Shown: piece after piece, positions 10,195-31,883 of the stretch
How positions within the stretch are numbered: the stretch's first letter is position 1
How the letters are laid out: each line of letters opens with the position of its first letter
Assembly: GCA_903850425.1 (NCBI GenBank)
Contig: CAINLR010000139.1
Location: 1 to 39,818 of the forward strand
Direction: 5' to 3'
Source of the DNA: an uncultured Verrucomicrobia subdivision 3 bacterium
GTDB lineage: Bacteria; Verrucomicrobiota; Verrucomicrobiia; Limisphaerales; UBA11358
Length of the DNA: 39,818 nt
Notes under the pieces: model-generated
What the model was told of the DNA's origin: nothing
Databases searched by the model: none
Seen by the model: only the letters and a program-made list of their open reading frames with translations
Position numbers and translations under genes: made by a program

Positions 10195-10272
10195 ATTGGT
10201 TGCTTGGTTTGTTAATAGAGGGCTGTGGAATTGGTTATGAATTTGGCAAACAGTGGCGGTTGTCTTTATTAT

Positions 10273-11130: not shown

Positions 11131-11145
11131 GGGTGGAATGAAATT

Positions 11146-11985: not shown

Positions 11986-12016
11986 CGGTTTGTTTTGGCT
12001 GTGGTTTTCAGGGCTT

Positions 12017-12044
12017 AACCTAACAGTCCAGCGCTGCGCGGCAA
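12017..12044 (-). promoter_or_regulatory. Predicted promoter of the pseudopilin/giant-protein cluster
   Basis: On the minus strand, TTGCCG (12044-12039) and TAGGTT (12022-12017) are separated by 16 bases, and the second ends 31 bases before the ATG at 11985. Both hexamers are only moderate sigma-70 matches. They are conserved exactly in the paralogous region at 19017-19044. The -35 hexamer overlaps operator box 1, as expected for a promoter helped by an activator. This is inference from sequence only. Confidence 0.4.
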
Positions 12045-12081
12045 TTGATGGTTTGCGCAAACATGGTATCTTTTGCGCAAA
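12035..12081. promoter_or_regulatory. Operator copy A: TTTGCGCAAA pair plus third box
   Basis: The perfect palindrome TTTGCGCAAA occurs at 12052-12061 and again at 12072-12081, exactly 20 bp apart (two helical turns). A weaker box, TGCGCGGCAA, lies at 12035-12044. The array matches the one before the intact regulator (19035-19081). In the 57 bases 12033-12089 only two positions differ between copies, although the flanking regulator remnant differs at roughly a fifth to a quarter of positions. It is the probable binding site of the XylR-like regulator at 19094..20257. Confidence 0.75.
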
Positions 12082-12093
12082 TCTGTTTTCCGC

Positions 12094-12230
12094 TTGAAAG
12101 GTCAGTCTAAGAATGCCGTCGCACTGCCTGATACCAAACTCTGAGGCATCATCTGATTCTTTAATGGCATCACTGAATACGCACGCGAATACCACTGGCG
12201 ACTGAACTCCTGACTGGTGAAACACGGAAT
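12094..12230 (+). pseudogene. Remnant of the 5' end of a XylR-like regulator gene
   Basis: This stretch aligns without gaps to the start of the intact regulator, at an offset of exactly 7000 bases. By hand count it is about 75-80% identical over the first 110-120 bases. The start codon has become TTG. The translation reads [16 protein letters not shown], stop, GII, stop, [18 protein letters not shown], stop. The intact gene reads MKRQPKIAVALPDSKPWG..FFNGVNEYAHEQHWLLTSC. Three codons are now TGA, two of them from TGG and TGC in the intact copy. Similarity fades after about 12230, and the rest of the gene is absent, replaced by the end of the 2164-aa gene. It is non-functional. Confidence 0.85.
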
Positions 12231-12272
12231 GCGCGAGTTGATCAAAGGGAATGATCTATTCGAGCGCAACCA

Positions 12273-15200
12273 TCACGGAGATCGAACGCGGTAAAACTTC
12301 TGTTGGTTGGTCGCAACGCTGTCCATGAAACTTATCGTGCCTGTGCCAAAAAAACCGTTTGTCAGCGGCAACCAGTTTGTCAGCGGCATGGACAAATTCG
12401 TGCTCGACAGCAGTTGGTAGCTTTGGCCGCTGCTGCCGCTAAAACTCAAACTGAGTCCACCGGCGACAAAAGAAATAACATTGGCGAGCGTCGGCGCGAC
12501 CAGCGGCGCGACGACCAGTTGCACGACAGAATCAGTGTTTCGCAAATAAGCCGTTGCGCCCGTCGGCAGCGATGGCACGGTGCCGAGTTTGATCCCGGTG
12601 AAACCGCTGCCGCCGATTGTGCCGGTGTAAGTGATGAGCGTGTTTGTGCCCAGCGGCAGACTGGCGTCGAGCAGGTTGATCGTGTGCGTGCCGCTGACGT
12701 TCAACGCGGCGGTGAAAATTTTTCCGCCGGCGGAGATGCTGAAACGACTGGCCGTGACAGCACCGGCGTTGTCTCCCAAGTTCAACGCGCGATTCGTCAA
12801 CGTGCCGATGCCGGATGCATTGCCGGGCTGAAGCATGCCGCCGGATTGCAGCGTCGTGACTCCGCCAATGCTGCCGGCACCGCCGAGCGTCGCACCCGAC
12901 GCGACGGTCACGGTGTTCGTGCCGAGCGCGCCGTTCACCAGCAACGTGCCGGCGCTGACGAGCGTGGTGCCGGTGTAAGGATGCGTGCCGATTAGCGTCA
13001 AAGTGCCCGAGCCGATTTTGTTCAAATTGCCGGAACCACTGATGGGCGCGGTGTTTTGCACGGTGATGGCGCGACCGCTGCCGGTGTTGAAAGTGCTGAG
13101 CGTGCCGTCGCCCAAAACAATGTTGATCACGCCGCCGCTGGAGCTGTCCGCGCCGCTGATGGTGAGGTCGGTGGTCGCATTGTAATTGCTCACCGTGCCC
13201 CCACTCAGATTCAAATTGCGGACGGTAAGAGCATTGTAAGGAACGCCAGCGGCAGCGGTGATGGTCTGGACTGCGAGCGTGGCGCCGCTAGCCAGCGTAT
13301 AACTCGGCTTGAAGATAGGAGTGCCGGCGGTGTTGCCAGTGGCTCCGAAGTTGAGCGTCTGCACGCGCGCCAAACCGCCGTTCTGGTTGAAGTTACCCGT
13401 GGAGTTGGCCGTGCCGTTGTTGGCTGAATTCACATAGGCCAAATCAAGGGTGGTAATGTCAAAAGTGCCGTTGCCGAAATTGAGCGTCGCCGTTTCCGTG
13501 ACTCCCGGTTGCGCCGTGTTCAGCACGTAAAGCGTGCCGATGAGCGCGTCCACATTCGCCGCGCCGAGATCGATCGTGTCAGTCTGGCTAGCGCCGGACG
13601 ATTGCGACAAAATGGTCATCGTGCCGAGCCGCGAGCTGCCGCCGGTGATGCCGCGGAACGTGACGTTGGATGTGTTCAAGCCGCTTTCAAAATAGACATT
13701 GCCGGAGCCGCGATACGCGCCGAGCTGAAAATTGCCGGTGTTGAAAATATTGGTCTGACCGAGAAAAAGATTGCCGGTCGGCAGCGAGGTGCCGCCGCCG
13801 TTGCCGATGTAAATGTTGGCGGCGGTGATGCTATTGGAGCCGGCCAGATTCAGATTAAAAATGCCGCTGACGGCGGCGGTGCCTTGCAGGGTGAAATTCT
13901 GGCTGCCGTTGGAATAGGTGAACGACGACAAGCCGGACATGTCCAGCGTGGACGGACTCGTGAGCGTGCCGAACGGGCTGAAACCACCCGCCGCCGTCAC
14001 GGTGAGATTGCCATTTTGCACGCTGCCGACATAACTATTCGGCGGCAAAATATTGGCGAGCGCCTGGCGGTTGCCACCCAAATCAAAAATGCCATTGCCA
14101 GCGAACGTCATCGTGGTTGTCGTCGGCAATTGATTGTTACCAGCATTCAATTGCACCGCGCCGCCGCCAGTCAGCGACAGTATCGCGCCGGAACCGAGCG
14201 TTACCGCGCTGCCGAGCGAAACCACTTGGTTGCTCGCCACCGTCCAGATTTGGCTGACGGGTAGAGTTACCGGCACGTTCACGTTCGCCGAGGTGTTGGC
14301 CATGATGCCGTTCGTAATGGTCAGGGAACCGGTGCCTGACAAAGTGTAAGTGCCGCTCGCGGACGGATTGAACAGCAGCCAGGTGTTTGTGTGCGCGCCG
14401 GTGACCGTTACAGTTCCCGCCGTGCCGGTCGCGCCGAAAGCGGCGGTGAGCGGATTCGTATCATTCCACGCGACATCCGCGCTGCCGTTCCACCAATTCG
14501 TGTTGCTGCTGTTCCACGTGCCGCTACCGTCGAGCGGATGCGTGCCGGTGCCGCTGGGATTCGCGTCCCAAACGAGCGCGTTGGTCGGCGAACTAAAAAC
14601 CGCTTGAAACGATTTGCCCGCAGCACCGCTGACGTTCACCGAAAGAATAATCTGCGGACTAAGCTGCACCACCGTCACGCCCGGGTCCATGGACAAAACA
14701 CCCGTAGCCGCGCGGTTCAATGTCACGCTGATGGAGCCGCGATTGGTCTGCGTAGGATCGGAAACGCCCACGGCGATTTGAAATATATTTGCGGAGGTGA
14801 TGACGGAAGATTTTTTGTTCACCGTGATCAAACCGGCGGAGTTCGTGCCGTCCACCCAAAAGTTTGCCGCGACCACTCCGAGCGATGGCTTGCTCGCGGC
14901 TTGCACGTTGGACGTGTTGGTCAACACCACCATGTCCGGGCTGGCCGTATAAGTCGCCATGCCGCTCGCGGTGTAGTTCGGCAGAATCACATAGGCGTAA
15001 GTCGAGTTAGTCGGATTGGTGCCGTGGTTAAACCACAAGGTCATATAATTGTCGGTGTTGGTGTTCGGTGAAACGGTGTCATTCACATCAATCGTGCTCC
15101 AGGCGCCGGTGTTGGACACGAAGCCGGCATGCAAATTGGTCGCGCCACCGGGAAAATAATATCCGCCCGTGCCGTCCAGCGCGCACCAGGTCGTCGCGGT

Positions 15201-18200
15201 CAGGTTGGAACTCCAGCCCATCACCGGCGGATTCACGAAGCCGTTCACGGTGAAATTTTGCGTCGGCGAGGAACCGAGCCGGCGGTCTTCGACAGTCGTG
15301 TCCACTTCACCTTTGCCGTCAACGCAAGTAATGCCCGCGCCAAGGCAGACAATTTCGTTGTCGAACATGAACCAGGATTTTTTCGCGGTCAGCGACGTGC
15401 CATAAGCTGCGACCGACATGCCCGCCGCCCCGTAGGTTTTCGCAACCTGCGCGCCGCCCACCCACGACTGGCTGGTCGTGGTGCCTGCGCCGTAGGCCGA
15501 ATTGTTGACCGGCGCGGGCCGGGCAAATTGCTCCTCGGTCGTGCCGGGCAGATGATACGCGTCCACCGTCGGCCAAAAATCACCGGTGAACTGCGTGTCC
15601 GGATTGCCGAGGTAAAGATACGCCATGCCGTCACCGGTGAACCAGCCGTGCAGATTTTCGCCGCTGAAAGATTCAAAATTGTAGATGCGGCTCGACGACA
15701 TCCGGAGGGCGAGACAGAAATTCGTGCGCCACGACACGATGCAATCCATCGCCGGAAAATGATACTGGCCCGCCGGCATTTGCGGCAGGCTCGCCCACGC
15801 GGCCATCGCGTCGGCGGCGGCGGGCGGCGCGTAAGGCTTGATGCCGTTGACAAATCCCTGCCCCGAGGTGCCGGCCGGCCCGCGCGCGATGGTGCGGCCG
15901 CAAATCATCGCCATCCACTCGCCGTAGTAGTTCACCGGCTCGTAGGTTTGGGGCACCCAGTTGAAAACATTGGTCAGGTTCGGATCGATTATTTGCCAGG
16001 TGGATCCCAGGAGAAGGTTCACAATTTGCGAAACATCGCCGACCAGCGTCAGGCCATAACCGCCGGTGTAAGGATGGGCCGTGTGAAAAACAAACGAGCC
16101 GTCGCGGTAATAACCATCTCTATTTGTGACATAGAGAAACACGGGGCTTAAGTTGGTCTGCGCATTCCACATCTTGCCGCTATTCTGACCGATGATGCCG
16201 CGGATCAACATGCCCTTGCACTGATCGGTTAGGTTGGCCCCGGTCATCCAGCCTTTGTTCGGCGGCTGAAAATGATCCACGGCAGCGGTGTAGCTGGCGA
16301 TTTGCGCCGCCGTCAGCACCGGATAAACCAGCACCTGCGTGTCGTTGAAATTTTGCATCCCGCCGATTTCCCAGTCCCACCAATTGTCGTATTCGGTGAC
16401 GGTGGCCGTATAAATGTTCGCGCACATCCAATCCAGCGAGTTGGTGATGGCCGAGGCCAGCGCGGCGTTGCCCTGCAAGGGACTGCCCGGTGCCGCCCAC
16501 GCCAGCGCCATGCTGCGCAGCCGGCCAAACGTGGCGTCCATGTGCGAAGAGCCGGTGTTGATGCCGGACTGGCCGCTGCCGAGCGTCAAGTCGCTCCACA
16601 AATAAGTCCGGCCGGCGTTGGTGTTGAGCGTGCTCCAATAATTGTTGGCGGTCGTCGCCAAATTGTTCAGCGTGGCGGCGCTGGGGTTGCCGATGATCCA
16701 GTTCGACTGCCAGTAAAGCCGCAGTATGTCGAACTCATCCGGTGCGCCCACCGCCAAAATTTTTGCCGTGGTGGTGGCGGTCGCGTTTGCCAGCGAGTAA
16801 TTGCCCGCATCGGAACCGCTGATGGAAATTCCCGTCACGGTGACTTGCTTGTTGGTGCCGACATTTGGATCGGCAAAAAAAGCGTTGGTATAACTATCGC
16901 TCAAGTCATCTCCAGAAATCCGGCTGTCCGACAAAATCACGGTCGCGTTCGTCGTGCCGTCGTAAGTTCTGTTCACGCCGGTGGCGCTGACCGTCAAACT
17001 GCGCGGGGTCACCGTTAGAATGGCCGCATTGGTTGTCCCGCTTGGCGAATACCCGGTGGTTCCAGAATACGCGGCGGTGATGTTATGCGCACCGACAGAA
17101 ACTTGCGCAGTTTTGGAAATAATTGCGCTGCCACTCGAAAGCGTCACCGCATTTCCCAAGGCGGAACCGTCCACAAAAAATTGCACCGTGCCGGTGGCTG
17201 TGTTCGGACTGACCGTTGCCGTGATGCTGGAATTAGTGCCGAAAATTTTTGCATCAATACCGCTCAACGTCGTGGACGTCGCCACGCTCGACGATCCGGT
17301 GATGGTCATCTGAACATTGGCGCCGCTGAAAGTGATCGTGCCGGTTCCCGCCGTGCCCGCCAGCGTGTAACTGCCGGAATGAGTGATGGTGCCGGTCGCT
17401 TGTTTGATAATGGTATAAGTGCCGTTCGCCAGTGGCTGAAAGGTGTTCACCGTGATCGTTTGCCCGGTTAAAGACAAAGTCCCCTGTGAAATAAACAGCG
17501 TCGGATTCGAGCCGTCGCAGTTTAAAGTAATCGGTCGTGAACCTAAATTGACCGTGCCAGTCGTCGCGCCTTTGATGATGGCGGAAGCACCCACGCCGCT
17601 GGCCGCCAGTGATGTGCTGCCGCTCAAAGTGTAGGAACTGATCGCCGAAACATCATAAGTCGCGCCCGCCCCAATGCCGATGGCAGGCGAGTTGTTGATG
17701 TTGGCGGAACTGCCCAACGCCAGCGTGCCGGCGCTGATGGTAGTTGCGCCGCTGTAAGTATTCGCGGCAGTAAGTGTCAGCACGCCGGAGCCGTTTAGAT
17801 TCAACGCACCGCTGCCGGAAATAGTTCCAGAAAAAGTCTGGGCTGCGGAACTGTTGAAATTGAAAATGCCGTTGTTGACCATCGCTGCCGCATAGTTGCC
17901 GTTGCCCAACTTCCCCGCGCCGGCAATGGTTAATGTGCCGCCGCTGATGGTCGTCGCGCCGGTGTAAGTGTTCACGCCATTCAAGATCAGCGTGCCCACA
18001 TCCGTTTTTTGGAGACCGGAACCAGCGACGCTTTCGCCGATGGCACCTGGAATAGTCAGCGAGTAACTGGTGTTCGCCACGTCGAGGTTCGCCGCCGTGC
18101 AGGCCAGCGTGAGGCTGCGAGATGAGGCCAGTGTGACAGAGGCCGCCGTGGTGGGATTAAAATACAGCTCCGCGTTGTTGCTGATGACGATGTCATTATT

Positions 18201-18767
18201 GGTGTTGCCCAAATTGGCGTCCACGTTCAAGCCCAACGCGCCGCCAGAAATGATGACATTGCCGGTGTAAGGCTGGGATTCGGAATTGTAGCGGAAAGTC
18301 AACGTGCCGCCGCCGGTCTTGTTGAACCCTTGCGTCCCGCTCAACACAAAATAGAACCACAGCGTTGCCCCACTGTTGATTGAAAAAACCGGAATGCCGG
18401 AAGAAGTTTGCGCCGTGAGTTGCTCGGTGGACAAACTCGGGTTGCCCACCACCACATTGCCGGAGACGCCGGTCGTGGCCAGCGTGCCAAAGGTGTAAGG
18501 AAACGCGCCGCCCGTGCGGGTGGCCTGCACATCCACGGTCACATTGGAATTGATGTTGACCACGGCACCAGCGGCATTGGGCACAGTCGCCGGACTCCAG
18601 TTGGTCGCCACGCCCCAAGAACCATTCGTGGCATTGATCCAGGTATTTTGGGCATGAAGCATGCCGGCCGAGAACAGCATGCCCATCAACCCGGAAAGCA
18701 ACCCGCCGCCGACAAAGCGGAGAATTCCTACGTTACTGGCGAAATCGGTTTGAAAACGTCGGTTCAT
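12273..18767 (-). CDS. Giant secreted polysaccharide lyase family 8 enzyme inside a beta-strand-repeat protein (2164 aa)
   Basis: The order of parts is: signal peptide (about 1-40, ending MLHAQ); autotransporter-type beta-strand repeats (to about 490, e.g. LQKTDVGTLILNGVNTYTG); a bacterial Ig-like domain (about 500-590); a YDG-type domain (NRTYDGTTNATV, about 595-670); a polysaccharide lyase family 8 catalytic region (about 673-1390); further beta-repeat sequence; and a C-terminal beta domain ending KFYRVRSP. The PL8 part shows NWWDWEIG in the alpha/alpha toroid, GENLHGWFTGDG and PGTTEE. The catalytic Asn, His and Tyr of hyaluronate and chondroitin AC lyases correspond to N845 (GANLTDQ), H895 and Y904 (HTAHPYTGGYG). 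PL8 enzymes cut hyaluronan, chondroitin or xanthan by beta-elimination; the substrate here cannot be told. Typical PL8 proteins are 700-1000 residues, so this is a large fusion. Its ends are paralogous to the 1836-aa protein. It is divergent from the regulator gene. Confidence 0.88.
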   Translation of the reverse strand: MNRRFQTDFASNVGILRFVGGGLLSGLMGMLFSAGMLHAQNTWINATNGSWGVATNWSPATVPNAAGAVVNINSNVTVDVQATRTGGAFPYTFGTLATTGVSGNVVVGNPSLSTEQLTAQTSSGIPVFSINSGATLWFYFVLSGTQGFNKTGGGTLTFRYNSESQPYTGNVIISGGALGLNVDANLGNTNNDIVISNNAELYFNPTTAASVTLASSRSLTLACTAANLDVANTSYSLTIPGAIGESVAGSGLQKTDVGTLILNGVNTYTGATTISGGTLTIAGAGKLGNGNYAAAMVNNGIFNFNSSAAQTFSGTISGSGALNLNGSGVLTLTAANTYSGATTISAGTLALGSSANINNSPAIGIGAGATYDVSAISSYTLSGSTSLAASGVGASAIIKGATTGTVNLGSRPITLNCDGSNPTLFISQGTLSLTGQTITVNTFQPLANGTYTIIKQATGTITHSGSYTLAGTAGTGTITFSGANVQMTITGSSSVATSTTLSGIDAKIFGTNSSITATVSPNTATGTVQFFVDGSALGNAVTLSSGSAIISKTAQVSVGAHNITAAYSGTTGYSPSGTTNAAILTVTPRSLTVSATGVNRTYDGTTNATVILSDSRISGDDLSDSYTNAFFADPNVGTNKQVTVTGISISGSDAGNYSLANATATTTAKILAVGAPDEFDILRLYWQSNWIIGNPSAATLNNLATTANNYWSTLNTNAGRTYLWSDLTLGSGQSGINTGSSHMDATFGRLRSMALAWAAPGSPLQGNAALASAITNSLDWMCANIYTATVTEYDNWWDWEIGGMQNFNDTQVLVYPVLTAAQIASYTAAVDHFQPPNKGWMTGANLTDQCKGMLIRGIIGQNSGKMWNAQTNLSPVFLYVTNRDGYYRDGSFVFHTAHPYTGGYGLTLVGDVSQIVNLLLGSTWQIIDPNLTNVFNWVPQTYEPVNYYGEWMAMICGRTIARGPAGTSGQGFVNGIKPYAPPAAADAMAAWASLPQMPAGQYHFPAMDCIVSWRTNFCLALRMSSSRIYNFESFSGENLHGWFTGDGMAYLYLGNPDTQFTGDFWPTVDAYHLPGTTEEQFARPAPVNNSAYGAGTTTSQSWVGGAQVAKTYGAAGMSVAAYGTSLTAKKSWFMFDNEIVCLGAGITCVDGKGEVDTTVEDRRLGSSPTQNFTVNGFVNPPVMGWSSNLTATTWCALDGTGGYYFPGGATNLHAGFVSNTGAWSTIDVNDTVSPNTNTDNYMTLWFNHGTNPTNSTYAYVILPNYTASGMATYTASPDMVVLTNTSNVQAASKPSLGVVAANFWVDGTNSAGLITVNKKSSVITSANIFQIAVGVSDPTQTNRGSISVTLNRAATGVLSMDPGVTVVQLSPQIILSVNVSGAAGKSFQAVFSSPTNALVWDANPSGTGTHPLDGSGTWNSSNTNWWNGSADVAWNDTNPLTAAFGATGTAGTVTVTGAHTNTWLLFNPSASGTYTLSGTGSLTITNGIMANTSANVNVPVTLPVSQIWTVASNQVVSLGSAVTLGSGAILSLTGGGAVQLNAGNNQLPTTTTMTFAGNGIFDLGGNRQALANILPPNSYVGSVQNGNLTVTAAGGFSPFGTLTSPSTLDMSGLSSFTYSNGSQNFTLQGTAAVSGIFNLNLAGSNSITAANIYIGNGGGTSLPTGNLFLGQTNIFNTGNFQLGAYRGSGNVYFESGLNTSNVTFRGITGGSSRLGTMTILSQSSGASQTDTIDLGAANVDALIGTLYVLNTAQPGVTETATLNFGNGTFDITTLDLAYVNSANNGTANSTGNFNQNGGLARVQTLNFGATGNTAGTPIFKPSYTLASGATLAVQTITAAAGVPYNALTVRNLNLSGGTVSNYNATTDLTISGADSSSGGVINIVLGDGTLSTFNTGSGRAITVQNTAPISGSGNLNKIGSGTLTLIGTHPYTGTTLVSAGTLLVNGALGTNTVTVASGATLGGAGSIGGVTTLQSGGMLQPGNASGIGTLTNRALNLGDNAGAVTASRFSISAGGKIFTAALNVSGTHTINLLDASLPLGTNTLITYTGTIGGSGFTGIKLGTVPSLPTGATAYLRNTDSVVQLVVAPLVAPTLANVISFVAGGLSLSFSGSSGQSYQLLSSTNLSMPLTNWLPLTNGFFGTGTISFMDSVATNQQKFYRVRSP

Positions 18768-18780
18768 AATTAAAAAAATC

Positions 18781-18808
18781 GCGGCGCGTCCAACTAATAG
18801 AGGCCCGT
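18781..18808. repeat. Degenerate copy of the 4606-4641 stem-loop sequence
   Basis: The bases CGCGG.GCGTCCAAC..AATAGA.GCCC here match the stem-loop at 4608-4636, including its loop, with one small gap. The stem itself is imperfect in this copy. It lies just upstream of the ATG of the PL8 gene. Two copies suggest a dispersed palindromic repeat, though chance similarity is possible. Confidence 0.4.
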
Positions 18809-18914
18809 GCTGTGTTCCAACTCAATCCAAGCCAAAAAACTGCCGCATGGTTAAAGCGCGACCAGTTTGATTCACGGATACCGCAACGGGAGCAACACTT
18901 TCGGATTTGCTGAC

Positions 18915-18984
18915 GAGGATTTGCTTCCGGGCTGGTGGACGCCGACATAGCTGATGGCTTGACGGCGCAATTGGTCGTGGTCAT
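18915..18984 (-). pseudogene. Remnant of the start of a pseudopilin gene
   Basis: Starting at an ATG at 18984 the frame reads MTTTNCAVKPSAMSASTSPEA. This aligns with the start of the pseudopilin at 11985, [21 protein letters not shown]. The two share ten or more of the first 21 positions, at the same distance from the operator. After EAN the similarity stops before the FTLIELL cleavage helix, so nothing functional remains. The piece now sits in the long leader of the PL8 gene. It shows that this region once had the same arrangement as the 11-12 kb block. Confidence 0.7.
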
Positions 18985-19034
18985 CCGTTTAATCTAGGCT
19001 GTGGTTTTCAGGCCTAAACCTAACAGGTCGGGGC

Positions 19035-19081
19035 TGCGCGGCAATTGACGGTTTGCGCAAACATGGTAACTTTTGCGCAAA
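19035..19081. promoter_or_regulatory. Operator copy B between the PL8 gene and the regulator
   Basis: TTTGCGCAAA occurs at 19052-19061 and 19072-19081, with centres 20 bp apart, and a weaker box TGCGCGGCAA at 19035-19044. The last box ends 12 bases before the regulator ATG at 19094, so bound protein would cover the start region and autoregulation is likely. On the minus strand the hexamers TTGCCG (19044-19039) and TAGGTT (19022-19017) are kept as in copy A and may drive the PL8 gene through a leader of about 250 bases. Confidence 0.75.
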
Positions 19082-19093
19082 TCTGTTTTTCCC

Positions 19094-20257: not shown

Positions 20258-20265
20258 ATCCGTTT

Positions 20266-20335
20266 GGGGCGCCGAGCATTACTCGGCCAGTGAGAAAAAA
20301 GGCGCATCAATGAGCCGAGCAATGCTCAGCGTTCC
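20266..20335. terminator. Inverted repeat between two convergent genes (bidirectional terminator)
   Basis: A 22-base arm at 20266-20287 pairs with 20314-20335 at 18 of 22 positions, around a 26-base loop. Both arms contain GCCGAGCA..GCTCGGC-like sequence. It begins 8 bases after the regulator stop codon and ends 20 bases before the stop of the esterase gene on the other strand, so it could end both transcripts. Each arm is itself partly palindromic (GCCGAG..CTCGGC), as in REP-like elements. Confidence 0.6.
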
Positions 20336-20355
20336 GCTTTTGCGAGGTCGCCGAA

Positions 20356-21708: not shown

Positions 21709-21770
21709 ATTTGATTGTGCGGACAGCTTACTATTAGCAATAAAGGTGCGTCTATCTTTGGAAAGGACTT

Positions 21771-24131: not shown

Positions 24132-24198
24132 AATTCCTTGGCGAAACAAATGTCGCTTGGAAATTTGCCAACGGGTTGCAAATGTAAATTTGCCTCAA

Positions 24199-26058
24199 TT
24201 AATTCCTCACACTGATGTTTATGCGACTGTTGAACACCGTGGCCCGGGTCATCTTGTGATTGGCGTAAAGCCCCATGTGCGCCCCAGCCAAACCGGGCTT
24301 GCCGAGATACGGGCCAGCGGAGGCGAGCGCATTGTCCTGATAAACTTGAACCTGTTTGGTTTTGACGTTCGCCTCAACGCGCACGGTCACCCATTGCCCA
24401 GTGGGGAAAACCGGTCCGTCTTCAATTTGGGGATAAAATGTTCCAGCGCCTGCCTGATCCATCGAGTAGGCCTGCAACCGATAATGTCCCGGTGTCCCGA
24501 CCAGATTGACCATCACCGAGGGATGAAAGAACGTCCCGCCCGCGACGGTGGTTTCGTCAAAAATGGTCACCACATTCAACCATGGGTTTTGTCCATACGG
24601 CCCCAGTTCTGAAGGCGTCAAGTCATCTACCTTCACATCGAAACTCACGCTGATGCTGCCGGGAATGAAGTGGTCTAAATAAATTTCCGGGTGCATGTGG
24701 AACTTTTCGGGATCGGCGGTCTTGAAATCAGGAGTGAGGTGGCCGACGAAAACAATTCCCCGTCCGAGATCCGCCGGGTCGGGCAGATATTCATAATGCC
24801 CCGGAATTGTCTGGTGGTGTGAATACACAAAAGCGGCTTCGCTCGAACAATCCCCTTTCCAAACGAAAGGCGTGCCTGGCACTGCCGACCCGGTGGATGC
24901 CGATGCGGTCGCGGCGGACGTTGTTGTTTCGGAGACCGGCACCAGCGAGCACTTGGCCAGCCAGTATGTCTGCCCGACCGTGGCTCCCAGATCGGTGAAA
25001 GAGATGCGAACATTGTTGTCACTCCAAGGCGTGGCAAACTTAAAGTGCAGTTCCTTCCACTCGGTGGAAAGCGGTAACAGCTCCTGCGTGTGATGCTCCC
25101 AAGGTTCGTGGTTCATCATGCAATTCACCTTGATGCCGCTGGCGCGATCAGACTTGGCCCAGAAAGTCAGCTCGTAGGCCCGGCCTTTTTCGATGTGCGG
25201 TCCGGTCTGGTATAACTGCAAATGATAGGCTTTGGGGGCGATCGTGAGCACTTGAATACTCAGGGCCGCTTTACCGTCCGGCCCCTCCGGCACATATTCC
25301 ATCCGTCCGGTGGCTCCCTCAGTTTGTTCCAGAACCCAGTTGGTCAGTCCGGCGGCGAAGTTGCCGTTGACCAGCATTTCATCTCCGCGTTTCAACCCAG
25401 CAGATGCATCGGGCGCAACGGGGAGCGCGGCTTCGGTCGCGACAGCTTTTGAAGAAAGTCCACCGCCCTGCAAAACCAGATTGTCAATCCAGGCAACCCG
25501 CGTGCCGTTTGTCAGCCCGCTGTCAGAAAACTGAAAACTAAACCCGCGAGCGGAGGTGACGTCGCCAGTCAGCGGCACGGAGATGTGAAACCAGCCGTTG
25601 TTGGTGTTCAAGTTTTCACCATATTGGCGGAGAAATGTATATTGGTTGTCATTGGCGCGGATGACGAGTTGGAACCATCCGGTATTACCGTCCTCACGCG
25701 CGGGGGAAGCGGGGTCCACTTTGACATCGAGACTGAGGTTGGTGTAACCGGCAGCAGTCAGGTTGGTCGCCACGGGAAATTTATCCAGCGTGAATTCAAA
25801 GCCCCCTGGGACAGTGAACGGAAGGACGAGTTTCATGGCCCCACGTGACAAACTGCCGCCGGCGTCCTCGGTGGGATCGAAGGTGAAGGTGCCGCCGGGC
25901 AGACCTCCGTCATAACGCCAGGCGGCGACTTCTGCGGCGGAGTCAAAACGATTGATAACCATGTCGGCCCGAGCGGCAACGAAGCTGAATGTGAATAAGG
26001 CGAGGACAACAATCGCGGGCTGCGCGATTCTGCGTGTTGAGGTAGTGATCGTGGTCAT
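24199..26058 (-). CDS. Secreted multi-module carbohydrate-binding protein
   Basis: A 619-residue protein with a signal peptide (about 1-31, IVVLALFTFSFVAARA). Three beta-sandwich modules are visible. The first, about 35-200, is CBM-like (NRFDSAAEVAAWRYDGG, ending WIDNLVLQGG). The second, about 225-375, is of the CBM4/9 type (MLVNGNFAAGLTNWVLEQ, AYELTFWAKSD). The third, about 395-615, is probably a concanavalin/laminin-G-like jelly roll (SISVSFDVKVDDL, WVTVRVEANVKTKQVQVYQD, GLYANHK). A Ser/Thr/Ala linker separates the last two. I see no catalytic motif I can name. The third module could be a lyase-like jelly roll, so weak catalysis is not excluded. It is fifth in the glycan operon, 9 bases after the fucosidase gene, and probably holds the substrate near the enzymes. 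Confidence 0.75.
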   Translation of the reverse strand: MTTITTSTRRIAQPAIVVLALFTFSFVAARADMVINRFDSAAEVAAWRYDGGLPGGTFTFDPTEDAGGSLSRGAMKLVLPFTVPGGFEFTLDKFPVATNLTAAGYTNLSLDVKVDPASPAREDGNTGWFQLVIRANDNQYTFLRQYGENLNTNNGWFHISVPLTGDVTSARGFSFQFSDSGLTNGTRVAWIDNLVLQGGGLSSKAVATEAALPVAPDASAGLKRGDEMLVNGNFAAGLTNWVLEQTEGATGRMEYVPEGPDGKAALSIQVLTIAPKAYHLQLYQTGPHIEKGRAYELTFWAKSDRASGIKVNCMMNHEPWEHHTQELLPLSTEWKELHFKFATPWSDNNVRISFTDLGATVGQTYWLAKCSLVPVSETTTSAATASASTGSAVPGTPFVWKGDCSSEAAFVYSHHQTIPGHYEYLPDPADLGRGIVFVGHLTPDFKTADPEKFHMHPEIYLDHFIPGSISVSFDVKVDDLTPSELGPYGQNPWLNVVTIFDETTVAGGTFFHPSVMVNLVGTPGHYRLQAYSMDQAGAGTFYPQIEDGPVFPTGQWVTVRVEANVKTKQVQVYQDNALASAGPYLGKPGLAGAHMGLYANHKMTRATVFNSRINISVRN

Positions 26059-26067
26059 GGCGAATGT

Positions 26068-27687
26068 TTAGTGAGGAAGCGAAACCGGCGCGGGCTTGAG
26101 GTTGCTGCCGGTGATGCGCAGCGAACAAGTCAGGTCGCTGATTTTATTGCCCGGCAACTGCACCGTCAAACCTTCAGCAGTCTGGGTGAACTTCAAGCTG
26201 CATTTGCCCCCAAACAATTTTTTTATGAAGTTGACCTTGTAGCCCAACAATTCGACCCGCTTGATTTTATTCATTCCCGCGTCCGAGGTCTTTGCGAGGG
26301 ACTTGATTACAATCTTGCGGTTGTCCGGCCAGCCCAGCGCAATGGCGTAAAGCGTCGCGCCCTTCGTCGTGAAACGGATGTCCTTGGCTGAGAAATCAAA
26401 TTTTTCGCTGAACGCGCCGCCCTTCGGTTTCACCGCGCCTTCGCCGTAAACCAGCCACGGACGCGAACCGTAAATCGCCTCGCCATTCACCGCCGTCCAA
26501 TCAGCGAGGCGATGAAGTATCGCCTCGGCATCGGCGTCGAGCGAGCCGTCAGCACGCAGGACAACATTCAGCAGCAGATTGCCATTTTTGCTGACGATGT
26601 CCACGAGCGTGCGCGCGACCCATTCCGGCGAGCAATACATTTTGCCGGTCTGCTTGTCCTTGTAATTCTTGTTGCAAAACCAGTCGCCGATGGAGGTGTC
26701 GGTCTGCCACGGATTCGGATCAATGCCACCGCCGACGCCGCGTTCGTAATCCTGCACCCAGCGACCGCCGGAAACCTGCTTGCAATTATACACCGCTTGC
26801 GATTTGCCGCCATGCGCAGCCGCGCTGACATTGTAGAGGTTGGCCACCTGACTTAAGCCGACCACGCTGTTCGTGCCGAAGGCCACGCCACCATCGCTGT
26901 AAAGCAGGTCGGGCTGGTAATTATCCACGAGTTCCTTAATTTCGTCGTACCACTGCTGATGCCAGCGCGGATTTTTGGAATACCATCCGGTGTCGCCCGG
27001 TTCCGCTGGGAAATGGTATAAATCCCAGTTATTCGAGTTGGCCCCATCATACGGCACGCCGGCCAGCGGACCGGTCTTATCGGATTTGTGCGCGTCTTGA
27101 AACCAGGTGAAGCTCGCGCCCAAATGTTCCGAGACGCCGAACGGCAGGCCGTTTTTTTTCGCGGCCGCCTGCCATTCGCTAACAACGTCGCGGTGCGGCC
27201 CCATCTGCACGGAATTCCAGCGGTGTAGTTTCGAGTTCCACAAAAAGAAATTGTCGTGATGCGAACCCATGCTAACAAAATATTTTGCGCCGGCCTTTTT
27301 GTAGAGTTCCATCAGTTTCTCCGGCTCCCATTTCTCCGCCTTCCACAGCGGGATGACGTCCTTCCAGCCGTTCGTGGACGGATGGCCGTAATTTTCCAAG
27401 TGATGTTTGTAGTCAGCGCTGGGGCCTTTATGCTCGCCGGTCTTGCGATCGACCTCATCCGAGACATACATCTTGCGCGCATACCAGTCGCCCTCCTCCG
27501 GCACGGCCTGCGGCCCCCAATGTGCCCAGATGCCAAACTTGGCGTCCCGAAACCATTCCGGGCAGGAATAATTGGTCAGCGATTCCATCGTGCCTGTGTA
27601 AGGACCAGACGTGATGGGAAGGTCCAGAGCTTGGCCGCCAAGCGGCACGAACAGAGCCAACGACAGGAGTAAGTTTGTTAGTTTCAT
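26068..27687 (-). CDS. Secreted GH29 alpha-L-fucosidase
   Basis: A 539-residue protein from the ATG at 27687, which opens a signal peptide (MKLTNLLLSLALFVPLGGQA). The longer frame to 27837 overlaps the previous gene. It has the GH29 fold: a (beta/alpha)8 barrel with WFRDAKFGIWAHWGPQAVPE near the start, the substrate-binding pair in SMGSHHDNF, and the predicted nucleophile D265 in DLLYSDGG. A NGNLLLNV segment then leads into the C-terminal beta domain. GH29 enzymes remove terminal alpha-L-fucose with retention. It is fourth in the operon, only 7 bases after the GH-A glycosidase gene. It would take fucose from the same glycan that GH92 and GH130 process for mannose. Because family 29 also contains unusual specificities, fucose is likely rather than certain. 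Confidence 0.9.
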   Translation of the reverse strand: MKLTNLLLSLALFVPLGGQALDLPITSGPYTGTMESLTNYSCPEWFRDAKFGIWAHWGPQAVPEEGDWYARKMYVSDEVDRKTGEHKGPSADYKHHLENYGHPSTNGWKDVIPLWKAEKWEPEKLMELYKKAGAKYFVSMGSHHDNFFLWNSKLHRWNSVQMGPHRDVVSEWQAAAKKNGLPFGVSEHLGASFTWFQDAHKSDKTGPLAGVPYDGANSNNWDLYHFPAEPGDTGWYSKNPRWHQQWYDEIKELVDNYQPDLLYSDGGVAFGTNSVVGLSQVANLYNVSAAAHGGKSQAVYNCKQVSGGRWVQDYERGVGGGIDPNPWQTDTSIGDWFCNKNYKDKQTGKMYCSPEWVARTLVDIVSKNGNLLLNVVLRADGSLDADAEAILHRLADWTAVNGEAIYGSRPWLVYGEGAVKPKGGAFSEKFDFSAKDIRFTTKGATLYAIALGWPDNRKIVIKSLAKTSDAGMNKIKRVELLGYKVNFIKKLFGGKCSLKFTQTAEGLTVQLPGNKISDLTCSLRITGSNLKPAPVSLPH

Positions 27688-27694
27688 TTTTCGA

Positions 27695-29191
27695 CTATTT
27701 GATTGATGTGAAAATGACCACGCTGCGGGCAGGCAAGCTGACGTGTAAGCCAGCGGCCAAATCAGCCACTGGCATAACTTCCTTGGGCAGAGGAAAACCA
27801 TTTTTGTCCGTGAGCGTGTCACCGGGGAAATAATCATAGCGCGCGAGTCGTGGAATTTTTTTTAGGCCCGGTGCGGCGACACGAATTTTGTGTGGCGTGT
27901 CTGAGTCATTCACCAGCGCTAGTGAGAAGTCATTGCCTACCGTCGCCGCAAGTGTGCGCAGGCCAGGCACGAGCGTCTCGGAAGTTTTCAACGTCGTGCA
28001 GCCCGGCGGAAAGCTGCGCGACAGCAGCGACCAAGTGTAATACCACGGACGCAAATTCATGTCTTCAGGATGCCCGATTTCATTGGCGAGGCTGTTCCAG
28101 AATCCCCATTTCTTGAAAAGTGTTTTGGTGACATCCGGCCAGGCGTTGTCCTTGTTTTTGTTGATGTGCATCGCATCGTCCAAGTCCCACGCGATGGTGC
28201 CGGCCATTCCAGCGCGGGCGCATTGCACGTTGTAGTCGGCCATCCACACGCCGTAGTTGTGTTCGTAGATATGCGGCTGGCTGTCGTTGCCGCCCTGCGG
28301 AGCGACCGGGCCACCGGTCATGCCGGCTTCGCCCATGAAGAAAGGTTTGGCGGTAGCATTCGTGTCAAAGCGATCAACATAGTCTTTCTTCATCCAGCAA
28401 TACTTTTCGAGATAACCGGACTCCAAATCGGCTGCGGGAGCGTAATAGTGAAAGTCATAAGCGCCCACTTCTTTGGGGGACTGTTGCACGGTGAGTTCAA
28501 TCCAGAAGCCATCGCGCGGGAGAAAAGTCACATCGGGACCAACCATCTGGACATCCTTGGACAGCCCGCGCCTGGCAAATTCGCCATTGAGAGCGGTGAT
28601 AGCCGACTTCCATTTGTCGAACGGAATGCGACCGGATGAATTGCTGTCCGGTTCGTTCAGGAGGTTGAAATAAACGATGCAGGTGTAGTGCTTCACGTTC
28701 CGCAGATATTCCACCTCGTCGGCGATGATGCGATGCCAGCGCGGATCATTTTCCTCCATGTGGTATTGCTGGAGCTTGTCGGTCTCGATGTCCGGGCGAT
28801 CCTGCTGCGACGACGGATGATCCCATTCGCCGAGAATCACTTTGACGTGGTGCGCCTGGCAGTAGTCGAGCAGGCGATACATCTTCTTCATGCGATTATT
28901 GTCCCAGTTGTAAATGGGTTTGCCTGCCGCATCGAAACCGTCGCAGTAAGTATAGGAGCGCGTCATCAGCCGGACGATGGGCACGCGCATGAAATCCAGC
29001 CGCTCAAACATTTTCTGCCACGCCGCGTCTGTGATGTCGAACCACGGATACGGACTCCACTGCACGCCAAAGCCGAGAAAATTCGTGCAGAGCGGCGCGC
29101 CCGTGTCCACAGTGATTTGAACAGGTTCAGCGGGCGCGTTGAGCGCAAATATCACCGTTCCCGCAGCCAGCGAGAGAAGGATTTTTTTCAT
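27695..29191 (-). CDS. Secreted clan GH-A glycoside hydrolase (GH5-like)
   Basis: A 498-residue protein with a short signal peptide (MKKILLSLAAGTVIFALNAPA). It is a TIM-barrel glycosidase of clan GH-A. The acid/base is probably E180 in FNLLNEPDS, after strand 4, and the nucleophile E288 in FFMGEAGM, after strand 7. RVPIVRLMTRSY and VILGEWDHP are early barrel strands. A beta-sandwich of about 90 residues closes the protein, ending RSVVIFTSIK. The sequence is closest in style to GH5 and related families acting on beta-linked mannose or glucose chains, but I cannot assign the family or subfamily. It is third in the glycan operon, 9 bases after GH130. A beta-mannoside or beta-GlcNAc linkage would fit the phosphorylase upstream, as inference. 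Confidence 0.8.
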   Translation of the reverse strand: MKKILLSLAAGTVIFALNAPAEPVQITVDTGAPLCTNFLGFGVQWSPYPWFDITDAAWQKMFERLDFMRVPIVRLMTRSYTYCDGFDAAGKPIYNWDNNRMKKMYRLLDYCQAHHVKVILGEWDHPSSQQDRPDIETDKLQQYHMEENDPRWHRIIADEVEYLRNVKHYTCIVYFNLLNEPDSNSSGRIPFDKWKSAITALNGEFARRGLSKDVQMVGPDVTFLPRDGFWIELTVQQSPKEVGAYDFHYYAPAADLESGYLEKYCWMKKDYVDRFDTNATAKPFFMGEAGMTGGPVAPQGGNDSQPHIYEHNYGVWMADYNVQCARAGMAGTIAWDLDDAMHINKNKDNAWPDVTKTLFKKWGFWNSLANEIGHPEDMNLRPWYYTWSLLSRSFPPGCTTLKTSETLVPGLRTLAATVGNDFSLALVNDSDTPHKIRVAAPGLKKIPRLARYDYFPGDTLTDKNGFPLPKEVMPVADLAAGLHVSLPARSVVIFTSIK

Positions 29192-29200
29192 GGGAGTTGC

Positions 29201-30208
29201 TTATGCCGGGAATTGAAGGACGTATTTGACGAGTTTGTCAAAGTTCGCCGTGGCGACGCCGATGTATTTGTCCGCGCAGCCGTAATAGACATACAACCTG
29301 CCGCCAACCACAACGTTCGCGGTCGGAAACACGACGCCGTGCGGATACAAACCTTCCCACTCATACTTCGCTTCGGGCGACATGATCGGTTCCGGCGTGC
29401 GGGCGAGCACTTTGCGCGGATCGTTCAAATCCAGCATCATCGCGCCGACGTGATACACGCCAAGCGCATCTACCGCGTGATAAATGACAAACCAACCTCG
29501 CTTGTGTTTTAGTGGCGGAGCCGAGCCGCCGATTTTGCGCTCCCAATGAAATTTGGCCTTTGCGAGCAACGTCTCCTTTCCCCATTTGAGCGGATCATCG
29601 CCAAAACAAATCCAGATGGCCGGATACTTCGTGCCGTATTTTTTGCCGACCCACTGCATCGGCCGGCGCAGAAGAGCGAATTTTCCATTGATGCGTTCAG
29701 GAAATAAAATCACATCACGGTCATCGAGCGTCGGGTCCGTGATGCGGCCGAGGCGGCGAAATGTCTTCAAATCTTCGGACATGAGCAAGCCCGATGACGT
29801 GAGATTTTCTCCGAAGGCACGCGGTTGATGCTTGTCGCGAGGATTGAAGGCGGCATTGTTGGGCGCGAGCCAATACTTTTGCGGAAAATACGGGCGATAC
29901 GCGTAGGTGATCAGAAAATGCCCGTTGGTTTTAACGATGCGCGGGTCTTCGATGCAACCGGCGTCCTCACCGTCCACGCTCGGAGACAGTATGGGATCTT
30001 TTTGGGCGCGCTGGAAATGAAAGCCGTCCAGACTCGTCGCGAGGCCGAAGCGGATGATGTGATTCGCGTCATCGCCCGCCGCCCGGTAGAGCATCTTGAA
30101 TGCGCCGTTGTCATAAATCACACCCGGATTGCATACCACGAGACTTTCCCACGGCTGTTTGGGATTTGGTGAGAGAATGGGATTACCGGAATACTTTTCT
30201 AGTTTCAT
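29201..30208 (-). CDS. GH130 family beta-mannoside phosphorylase/hydrolase
   Basis: A 335-residue protein from ATG 30208 (MKLEKYSGNPILSP). It is a five-bladed beta-propeller of family GH130, with the opening NPILSP, RAAGDD, and the predicted general acid D88 in CIEDPRIVK. ERINGKFALLRRP and the late motif YPHGVVFPTANVVVGG are also typical, and its length fits the family. There is no signal peptide, so it works in the cytoplasm. GH130 phosphorylases split beta-1,4-mannosides such as Man-GlcNAc or Man-Glc using phosphate, giving mannose 1-phosphate; some members hydrolyse beta-1,2-mannosides. Placed 10 bases after the symporter gene, it probably acts on the imported oligosaccharide. Whether it is a phosphorylase or a hydrolase cannot be decided without aligning the phosphate-binding residues. 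Confidence 0.9.
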   Translation of the reverse strand: MKLEKYSGNPILSPNPKQPWESLVVCNPGVIYDNGAFKMLYRAAGDDANHIIRFGLATSLDGFHFQRAQKDPILSPSVDGEDAGCIEDPRIVKTNGHFLITYAYRPYFPQKYWLAPNNAAFNPRDKHQPRAFGENLTSSGLLMSEDLKTFRRLGRITDPTLDDRDVILFPERINGKFALLRRPMQWVGKKYGTKYPAIWICFGDDPLKWGKETLLAKAKFHWERKIGGSAPPLKHKRGWFVIYHAVDALGVYHVGAMMLDLNDPRKVLARTPEPIMSPEAKYEWEGLYPHGVVFPTANVVVGGRLYVYYGCADKYIGVATANFDKLVKYVLQFPA

Positions 30209-30218
30209 GAGAATAGTT

Positions 30219-31802
30219 TCAGCGCCAGATGAAAACAAAAATGGCCGCCGCCAGCAGCAGCAACGCGGACAGCACGCGAAAGTTTTTGAACCACGGCAGC
30301 CCGGCCAACTCTTTCGATTCCGCGCGGAAGAAAGACATGTTCCACACGAACCGCTCCACCACCCGCGCGCTCGGCGGTGCGGTCATCAAGCTGACCACGG
30401 CGATGATGACAAGCGACAAAATCAAGACGACCGGTGCGACGTAGAGGAAATTCCAGCTCGCCAGCAGCGTGTGCTTGATGCCGAGCATCAGGCACACGCC
30501 CATCACCAAACCAGAAAGCAGACCGACAAAGGCCCCCGTGGAGCTGGCGCGTTTCCAGAACAAGCCGGTGAGGAACACCGCCACCACCGGGGGCGCCATG
30601 TAGGCGAGGATTTGTTGGAAGTATTTCACAATGGAATCGAATTGCTGGATGTGTGGCGCCCAAATCGCCGCGACCGTGATGATGATGATGCCCGCCGTGC
30701 TGCCGGCGACCACCTGCTGCCGCCCCGTCATGCCGGGACGCAATTTGCTCACGAGATCCATCGTCACCAATGTCTGCGCCGAGTTGAGCGTGGACGTCAG
30801 CACGGAAGTCATCGCGGCGACAAAACCGATTAAGACTAATCCTAAAATGCCCGGCGGCAGCATTTCAAAAACCAGTTTCGGATAAACTTGGTCGCCTTTT
30901 TCCAAATTCGGATACAGCACGCGTCCGGCGATGCCCGGCAAAATCATCAGGGCGAAGATCACGAAGTTCAACGCGCCGGCCAACAGGTTGCCCCAGCGAC
31001 CGTGGTTGGTATCGCGGGCGCTCAACGTGCGTTGCACCATCGTCTGGCTCAAGCCCCAAAAATAAAATCCGGCCAGCGGCAGACTTATGAACAACGCCGG
31101 CCACGGCACCGACGCATCGTTGAGCGGGCGAATCAAGCTTAAATGTCCCGGCGGCGCTGCGTGCATGACCGCCGACCATCCACCGGCCTTTGAAAACGCG
31201 GTGAATGTCAAGATCGCCGAGCCGCCCATCAGCACGAAGGCTTGAATCAATTCCACGCGCATCACCGCCGACAATCCGCCAACGAGCGTGTAGGAAGCGC
31301 CAAGGATGGCGAGGCCCCAGATCAAAACCGGGATGCTGAACTGCGGAAAGACCATGTGCAGCATCAACGATCCCGCATAGAGCGTCACCGCCAGGTCGGC
31401 GAACATGTAACCAATCACCGTCAGCACCGAGAGATAAGTGCGACTGCGCACATCAAAGCGGCCTTCGAGAAATTCCGGCAGTGTGTAGATTTTATTCCGC
31501 AAATAAAACGGCAGGAAGAACACGAGAAAAAACACAATCGGCAGAATGGCCGCCGAGATACCGTAGTTGAAAACCGAAATGCCTGTGCTGTAAGCATCCC
31601 CCGACCAACCCACCAGCGACGAACTGGAAACCACCGTGGCAAACATCGAAAGTCCGACGACAAACCACGGCATCCCGCGGCCGCCAAGAAAATAATCTTC
31701 CGCGTTCTTGCGCTTGGAATGAAATAAACCCCAGCCAACAATGGCGACCAGATAAACCACCATGACGACAAGATCTATGGCGGAAATTTTAGCATTTAGC
31801 AT
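30219..31802 (-). CDS. Sodium:solute symporter (SSS family), first gene of the glycan operon
   Basis: A 527-residue inner-membrane protein with about 13-14 hydrophobic helices. It has the SSS-family features EDYFLGGRGMPWFVVGLSMF near the start, an early helix with VVSSSSLVGWSGDAY, GGLSAVMRVELIQAFVLMGG and QRTLSARD in the cytoplasmic loop, and AAMTSVLTSTLNSAQTLVTMD, where the Ser/Thr residues of the second sodium site usually lie. SSS transporters import sugars, amino acids or vitamins with sodium. In this operon a sugar or small oligosaccharide, perhaps a mannoside, is the likely cargo. It begins the operon (next gene 10 bases away). Its promoter overlaps the TTTGCGCAAA array at 31836-31883, so it should respond to the XylR-like regulator. 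No SusC/SusD pair is present. Confidence 0.92.
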   Translation of the reverse strand: MLNAKISAIDLVVMVVYLVAIVGWGLFHSKRKNAEDYFLGGRGMPWFVVGLSMFATVVSSSSLVGWSGDAYSTGISVFNYGISAAILPIVFFLVFFLPFYLRNKIYTLPEFLEGRFDVRSRTYLSVLTVIGYMFADLAVTLYAGSLMLHMVFPQFSIPVLIWGLAILGASYTLVGGLSAVMRVELIQAFVLMGGSAILTFTAFSKAGGWSAVMHAAPPGHLSLIRPLNDASVPWPALFISLPLAGFYFWGLSQTMVQRTLSARDTNHGRWGNLLAGALNFVIFALMILPGIAGRVLYPNLEKGDQVYPKLVFEMLPPGILGLVLIGFVAAMTSVLTSTLNSAQTLVTMDLVSKLRPGMTGRQQVVAGSTAGIIIITVAAIWAPHIQQFDSIVKYFQQILAYMAPPVVAVFLTGLFWKRASSTGAFVGLLSGLVMGVCLMLGIKHTLLASWNFLYVAPVVLILSLVIIAVVSLMTAPPSARVVERFVWNMSFFRAESKELAGLPWFKNFRVLSALLLLAAAIFVFIWR

Positions 31803-31817
31803 AGCGTGTTCACCCAG

Positions 31818-31846
31818 AGGCTATCCCCGCCTGCATTGCGCGCCAA
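31818..31846 (-). promoter_or_regulatory. Predicted promoter of the glycan operon
   Basis: On the minus strand, TTGGCG (31846-31841) and TAGCCT (31823-31818) are separated by 17 bases, and the second ends 15 bases before the symporter ATG. They occupy the same place relative to operator box 1 as TTGCCG and TAGGTT in copies A and B. Both are weak sigma-70 hexamers, consistent with a promoter that needs an activator. The leader would be very short. Confidence 0.35.
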
Positions 31847-31883
31847 CCGCCATTTTGCGCAAATCAGGAACAAATTGCGCAAA
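31836..31883. promoter_or_regulatory. Operator copy C upstream of the glycan operon
   Basis: TTTGCGCAAA at 31854-31863 and ATTGCGCAAA at 31874-31883 have centres 20 bp apart. A weaker box TTGCGCGCCAA lies at 31836-31846, 19 bp further towards the gene. Spacing and orientation match copies A and B, while the surrounding DNA is unrelated to them, so this is convergent or conserved site sequence rather than a recent duplication. It should place the seven-gene operon under the XylR-like regulator. Confidence 0.75.

Follow-up and report, generated by a model that had tools for sequence, protein, structure and literature searches.

Three-box arrays as the probable operator of a XylR-like regulator in a Verrucomicrobiota genus, with signs that its regulon has grown by copying of the regulator's own promoter

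We describe a short array of three boxes that occurs three times on one contig of an uncultured Verrucomicrobia subdivision 3 bacterium and that, judged by its sequence, is real, specific and conserved. Taken as a whole, the material is best explained if the arrays are the operator of a XylR-like regulator that activates the genes to the left of each array and represses its own promoter, and we consider this explanation probable. The array, its register and conservation, its link to the regulator, the promoter-like hexamers and a duplication are what the DNA itself supports; binding, the sign of control, the inducer and the substrate are what we infer.

The window analyzed here is a stretch of 39,818 nucleotides that makes up the whole of contig C139 in a draft genome of 6,888,713 bases on 197 contigs. 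The preliminary description had placed doublets of palindromic boxes with 20 bp between centers at three sites, and all three are present (12052/12072, 19052/19072 and 31854/31874), the second box of the third doublet, at 31874, being ATTGCGCAAA. The weak third box reported 19 bp leftward of each doublet is also real, with its own GCG placed 19 bp ahead of that of the following box. Across the 25 arrays aligned below, the box-1 unit matches the next unit best when shifted by 19 bp in the same orientation (38% identity, against 16-31% at other shifts), and the second unit matches the third best at 20 bp (65% identity). The plan has a single orientation, with box 1 (GCG...CAA) and GAC followed by TTTGCGCA in box 2, a G(G), and TTTGCGCA in box 3; the array is two units plus a third box. 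Hexamers of the form TTGCCG/TTGGCG-N16-17-TAGNNT were found on the minus strand where they had been described, at 12017-12044, 19017-19044 and 31818-31846. The features of the window are as follows.

4684..11985, minus strand: cluster of a pseudopilin gene, a second pseudopilin gene (DUF1559) and the gene for an 1836-aa PATR protein
12017..12081, minus strand: array A, with a predicted leftward promoter, upstream of the pseudopilin/1836-aa cluster
12017-12022 and 12039-12044, minus strand: array A, -10 TAGGTT and -35 TTGCCG of the predicted promoter
12036-12038, 12052-12061, 12065-12066 and 12072-12081: array A, GCG of box 1, box 2, GG and box 3
12094..12232, plus strand: regulator fossil, the first ~46 codons with in-frame stops, from the 78% alignment and the fossil comparison
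12273..18767, minus strand: gene for a 2164-aa PL8 lyase with PATR repeats, the PL8 part nearest xanthan lyases
18909..18985, minus strand: broken pseudopilin 5' end, homologous to 11910-11985 and lost in copy B, from the 78% alignment
19017..19081, minus strand: array B, with a predicted promoter pointing left to the PL8 gene
19017-19022 and 19039-19044, minus strand: array B, -10 and -35 of the predicted promoter
19036-19038, 19052-19061, 19065-19066 and 19072-19081: array B, GCG of box 1, box 2, GG and box 3
19045..19072, plus strand: proposed regulator promoter, TTGACG at 19045-19050, 16 bp, TAACTT at 19067-19072, from the TA columns
19094..20257, plus strand: XylR-like regulator, 387 aa, Peripla_BP_3 at 113-277 and HTH_18 at 308-385
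20356..31802, minus strand: seven-gene operon for an SSF symporter, GH130, GH5, GH29, CBM4_9, GH92 and an AXE1 esterase
31818..31883, minus strand: array C, with -10 TAGCCT at 31818-31823 and -35 TTGGCG at 31841-31846
31838-31840, 31854-31863, 31867-31868 and 31874-31883: array C, GCG of box 1, box 2, GG and box 3

The three sites had been presented as independent, which has to be revised: the sites at 12 kb and 19 kb are copies of a single segment, 11910-12232 matching 18909-19231 at 78% identity over 324 alignment columns, and array A is therefore no independent third observation. Both copies hold a pseudopilin start pointing left, the array, and a regulator start pointing right. In copy A the pseudopilin gene is intact and the regulator start is broken, and in copy B it is the regulator that is intact and the pseudopilin start that is broken. 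Array A thus appears to derive from a duplication of the regulator/pseudopilin junction in which the regulator copy died and the array was retained. Arrays A and B share 52 of 54 bases (12034-12087), compared to 201 of 270 in the flanks (Fisher P = 1.1e-4), and an array kept amid decaying flanks fits selection on the array. Array C has the boxes common to A and B in different flanks.

Single 10-mers with up to one mismatch are not significantly enriched in the 39.8-kb window (7 against 4.2 expected; 11 of 100 shuffles reach 7). The genome-wide motif search that had been proposed found the exact form TTGCGCAA-N10-14-TTGCGCAA at four places in the genome, three of them in this contig, and the reversed control at none. 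The fourth, at C161:23212, has a 19-bp spacing and is attributed to chance because it lies within an 839-aa open frame. With up to three mismatches at N10, three more places were found genome-wide (control, 1). A wider regulon in this genome was rejected, as a profile search (E <= 0.05) and the mismatch scans led back to the three arrays of the window and the three weak mismatch places. A separate observation on contig C161 (L005 1-18001) is a phage-tail-like gene cluster with an ATPase-like gene, perhaps a contractile injection system, as read by eye from the translations.

Orthologues of the regulator, defined by our own cutoff of at least 60% identity, are found in 8 of 146 genomes (own genome counted), all of one genus, and the remaining 138 have matches of at most 40% identity, among the matches listed, or none. 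From the eight orthologue-bearing genomes and genome G014, which is 75% complete, 25 arrays were aligned, eight at regulators, two beside regulator fossils and fifteen at other genes; the alignment covers neither the site in G037, the in-frame sites of G009, G019, G029 and C161, the 18-bp pairs of G010 nor G012 C10:85480. These arrays from nine genomes are found either beside orthologues of the XylR-like regulator or at target genes that recur, which supports the earlier proposal of one regulon; their conservation in part reflects shared descent, since all 25 come from one genus. The doublet TTGCGCA-N13-TTGCGCA is present in 12 of the 49 genus genomes, 7 of the 8 with an orthologue versus 5 of the 41 without, and its reversed control in 5 of 49, none of which bears an orthologue. 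Of the five orthologue-less genomes with the doublet, G014 has one that precedes the symporter operon, G037 has one where a contig begins, and the other three have it in frame; the last (G009, G019 and G029) lie in open frames without the GG at its place and are attributed to chance.

A profile of the 25 arrays recovered its training arrays across the genus at E <= 3.4e-11, as must happen, together with four further matches at E < 1e-4 (G034 C35:79062, G034 C35:85583, G014 C69:3701 and G037 C40:282) and 17 more rows at E of 0.001-0.05, one of which is the reverse strand of a known array. The signal is strong in the eight regulator-bearing genomes and the incomplete G014 and weak in G037. One of the G034 matches adjoins a symporter gene and the other a stretch with an esterase gene, and in these two arrays one or both palindromes are broken and the GG is retained. 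Among 245 genomes drawn from the order, matches at E <= 0.001 were confined to six genus genomes and G110; the G110 match, the sole one outside the genus, is weak, lies inside an open frame and was discarded. Two places may be noted in their own right. G037 C40:282 (L079, 289) is an array-like doublet with GG and without a clear box 1 in a genome where no regulator orthologue was detected, and G012 C10:85480 (L068 9481-9509), near an amidohydrolase-like frame start and missed by the profile, may be an array with a 21-bp spacing.

The boxes had been described as a pure palindrome used as a repeat, and this does not hold: the arms are unequal, an asymmetric G(G) stands between the boxes, and some distant XylR-like genes have asymmetric TTTTGCG repeats. 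Perfect TTGCGCAA palindromes at both boxes are found in 13 of the 25 arrays, and the outer bases are kept in 92 of 100 cells of the TTT arm versus 71 of 100 of the AAA arm (P = 2e-4). With 19067, the T that follows GG in array B, as position 0, G is found at -1 in all 25 arrays and at -2 in 21, C at -18 and A at +1 in 22 each, and TTTGCGCA at -15 in 21 and at +5 in 18. The arm asymmetry and the G(G) led us to reject a pure palindrome as the recognition unit. The literature matches listed for TTTGCGCAAA have titles and opening abstract lines on unrelated subjects.

The preliminary description had also proposed an activator-type promoter abutting box 1, and the wider alignment supports this. A TAnnnT on the minus strand, near -45 to -50, is in register in 23 of 25 arrays compared to 1.5% of random places, with a spacer of 16 bp in 13 arrays and 17 bp in 10 (it is missing in G017_REG and G032_920), and the TTG of the -35 lies at -23 to -25 in 22 of 25. 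The -35 and -10 hexamers thus fall within the 15-18 bp of a sigma70-type promoter, and we treat them as a predicted promoter. A second, TTGAC/TGGAC-N16-TAnnTT-like promoter is proposed to point toward the regulator, interleaved with boxes 2 and 3: TA follows the GG in 9 of the 10 arrays that adjoin a regulator 5' end, whether intact or fossil, versus 2 of the 15 others (P = 2.4e-4). The regulator start codon is 12-14 bp past box 3 in six of the eight regulator arrays, ~8 bp past it in G034 and 28 bp in G010.

The regulator has the domain order of the XylR subfamily, an N-terminal LacI-like ligand domain and a C-terminal AraC helix-turn-helix; only the ligand domain is LacI-like, the C-terminal HTH being HTH_18, so the protein does not belong to the LacI family. 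Its closest solved structures are the xylose operon regulators 4FE4 and 4FE7 (4FE4, E = 1.7e-52), that is, E. coli XylR, an AraC family protein with a LacI-type ligand domain, which it also resembles in having putative direct-repeat sites near sugar-utilization genes. Asymmetric direct repeats are the usual arrangement for AraC-type regulators. In sequence, the arrays show a 19/20-bp displacement in one orientation and unequal arms, and TTTTGCG repeats lie before some relatives.

These repeats were sought upstream of the top 82 nonorthologous XylR-like matches (~30-40% identity; 22 plus 60 loci), a set not independent by descent. In the first 22 regions, 21 bp gave the top mean repeat score among displacements of 8-40 bp (8.77 versus 7.3-8.3). 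TTTGCG ranked first among six-letter words repeated at 19-23 bp, in 8 of 82 regions, with the next unrelated word in 2, and no CGCAAA, GCGTTT or AAACGC repeats were found at these distances in the 82. Pairs of TTTTGCG with one mismatch at 20-23 bp are present in 12 of 82 regions (TTTGCGT in 15), against a median of 0 and a best nonoverlapping value of 4 for 60 words of the same composition; 70 of 82 regions have no such pair, and single TTTTGCG-type pairs occur at other distances too, in up to 3 regions each. L022 has ATTGAGGTTTTGCG twice at 22 bp, and L021 has A[AT]TCAGGTTTTGCG twice at 21 bp. ATTGAG-type words repeated at 21-22 bp stand beside TTTTGCG upstream of L021, L022, L028, L033 and L037, a possible wider half-site. 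Counts of TTTTGCG-N13-16-TTTTGCG and of its reversed control were 60 and 15 in those 17 genomes of the order draw that belong to the genus, and 170 and 107 in the other 228; in the genome of the window, TTTTGCG pairs were found at 6 places and the control at 2. Within this regulator family, the asymmetric TTTTGCG repeat seems to be an older element, with its strongest signal in the genus, and the palindrome seems to be a local elaboration.

Half-sites in direct repeat near the -35 are on record for the XylR proteins of E. coli and Vibrio and for MtlR (PMC12125979 and PMC4514859). PMC12125979 gives the Vibrio XylR-type sites as AT-rich direct repeats resembling those of XylR. The arrays described here are instead built on a TTTGCG core, which is extended into a palindrome and joined by a third box, and the targets differ from those of the XylR regulon in being polysaccharide enzymes and giant proteins. 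At PmtlE, as summarized in PMC4514859, MtlR has two direct repeats upstream of the -35, the upstream half-site strong and the downstream one weak. The present arrays likewise have repeats in one orientation upstream of a predicted -35, but here there are three boxes instead of two, and the regulator's own proposed promoter is interleaved with them.

In the mechanism that we favor, the inducer-bound regulator would occupy the units beside the -35 of a weak sigma70-type promoter (TTGnnn-N16/17-TAnnnT) and activate leftward transcription of the symporter/GH operon, the PL8 gene and the pseudopilin/1836-aa cluster. Beside the regulator gene, these boxes straddle its proposed rightward promoter, where binding would repress the regulator in the manner of AraC-like divergent control. 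The protein might read the array as GCG+GG units or as GG+TTTGCG units, with 19 bp between units 1 and 2 versus 20 bp between boxes 2 and 3. A tentative and rather speculative extension is that boxes 1-3 form two overlapping dimer sites in a copyable module with a register switch, the regulon growing by copying of the junction. Without sugar the regulator would sit on boxes 2 and 3 with its own promoter shut; with sugar it would move to boxes 1 and 2, contact the polymerase at the divergent promoter and turn the targets on.

Other readings of the arrays fit less of the evidence. The palindromes invite the thought that each is bound by a dimer of a palindrome-binding repressor, for example of the LacI type, which is encoded elsewhere and has the XylR-like gene as a target; five of the six window boxes are indeed perfect palindromes of the form TTTGCGCAAA, which seems to resemble LacI-family operators. 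We regard this as very unlikely given that perfect palindromes are found in barely half of the arrays, with unequal arms and an invariant G at -1, that the TTTGCG pairs upstream of distant XylR-like genes are confined to one strand, CGCAAA pairs at 10-60 bp being absent, and that no other family of DNA-binding regulator was found among the 13 window proteins scanned, a subset of the window frames. It is also unlikely that the XylR-like regulator itself represses all three promoters and is released by sugar. The overlap of the boxes with its own proposed promoter would agree with such control, but at the leftward promoters the -35 is overlapped by box 1 and has boxes 2 and 3 upstream of it, with a 16-17-bp spacer, which is the place of an activator (23 of 25 arrays), and activation is what PMC12125979 and PMC4514859 describe for E. 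coli XylR and a Vibrio XylR. Finally, the arrays could be functionless and retained through duplication alone, a reading that draws on the duplication behind A and B and on the near identity of one G010 copy with the regulator junction. This we find extremely improbable, because the array differs between A and B at 2 of 54 bases compared to 69 of 270 in the flanks, and the symporter-type arrays have the boxes of the regulator arrays and not their flanks.

The probable activator sites lie before a recurring set of genes. In array C, TTGCGCAA of box 2 starts 53 bp from the symporter ATG (31802), and box 2 starts 52-53 bp before this codon in G000, G017, G008, G032, G012, G041 and G014; G010 and G034 depart from this layout, the former with a GH28 gene at the head of the cluster and the latter with a longer distance between array and symporter. 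Some of the remaining arrays stand before pseudopilin genes, with PL8-like or other giant proteins coming next, or before a PATR protein of the 1836-aa type. In G017 (L042 13736-19999) an array precedes the gene for a giant protein of at least 2088 aa with GH5, GH9, CBM2, CBM3 and Calx-beta domains, divergent from the regulator, and in G010 C404 one precedes a LamG/Ig giant protein. Like the GH9+GH5 protein, GH94 and esterases are found near arrays in relatives. As a side observation, the giant PATR-repeat proteins of the window (4684-10194 and 12273-18767) are apparently controlled together with pseudopilins.

Among solved structures, the PL8 part is nearer to xanthan lyases (6f2p, E = 6.7e-136; 1j0m, 4.1e-131) than to hyaluronate/chondroitin lyases (chondroitin AC lyase, 3.1e-81). 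The closest solved structures of the GH130 protein are 1,2-beta-mannan phosphorylases, the GH5 protein had no solved-structure match, and no GH88 was seen among the window proteins scanned. GH29 is not part of xanthan breakdown. The substrate taken up and broken down is probably a xanthan-like, acetylated polysaccharide bearing mannose and uronate, and GH29 together with the mannan-phosphorylase-like GH130 suggests a polymer related to, but not identical with, xanthan. The classes named for xanthan breakdown in part of PMC10881899 (PL8 xanthan lyase, GH5/GH9, GH92, GH94 and esterases) are shared between the bacterial xanthan utilization loci and the present genes. In contrast to those loci, the genes here include GH130 and GH29, an SSF symporter gene heads the operon, the lyase is fused to PATR repeats, and pseudopilin genes are predicted to be under common control.

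How such a regulon gains members is suggested by the fossils. On G010 C404, two decayed copies of the regulator start plus array (L066 8272-8391 and 9694-10100) flank a transposase gene; one is nearly identical over the array and ~130 bp behind it, with 77% identity over 417 columns overall, the other has 75% over 120 columns, and the two may not be independent events. When 17 nonregulator arrays were compared with 3000 random segments, two were clear (the 12-kb array of the window and G010 C404:9827) and five of 17 fell in the top 5%, where about one is expected by chance, the other three being G012 15308 (0.7%), G012 9484 (2.5%) and G008 3586 (3.1%). An earlier comparison had true regulator regions in its null, so that its fractions are upper bounds. 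The other 12, G032 14562 (15.8%) included, did not reach the 5% level, which rules out a regulator fossil beside every array. A third clear fossil, the G010 copy with an 18-bp box spacing, is at C404:8359. Three copies of the regulator-promoter junction are thus seen, in two genomes. A copied junction would bring a ready promoter to a new gene, with the first codons of the regulator remaining as a fossil. With fossil starts beside three of the arrays, the regulon seems to have grown by copying of the regulator's own promoter, and such copying may be the usual founder of new targets.

In conclusion, the mechanism is ordinary in kind for XylR/AraC-type regulators, and what is new, as far as our searches show, is the organism, the motif, the three-box layout and the mode of spread. 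The literature matches listed contain no description of a binding site for a XylR-like regulator of Verrucomicrobiota, and the present work supplies a candidate site, a list of the genes that it would control and a prediction of the substrate class. The TTTTGCG repeats before some distant relatives suggest a shared code that might allow other sugar regulators of the order to be matched by sequence to the operons they control. The fossil regulator starts offer a concrete route by which a regulon may gain members, namely through copying of the regulator's own promoter.
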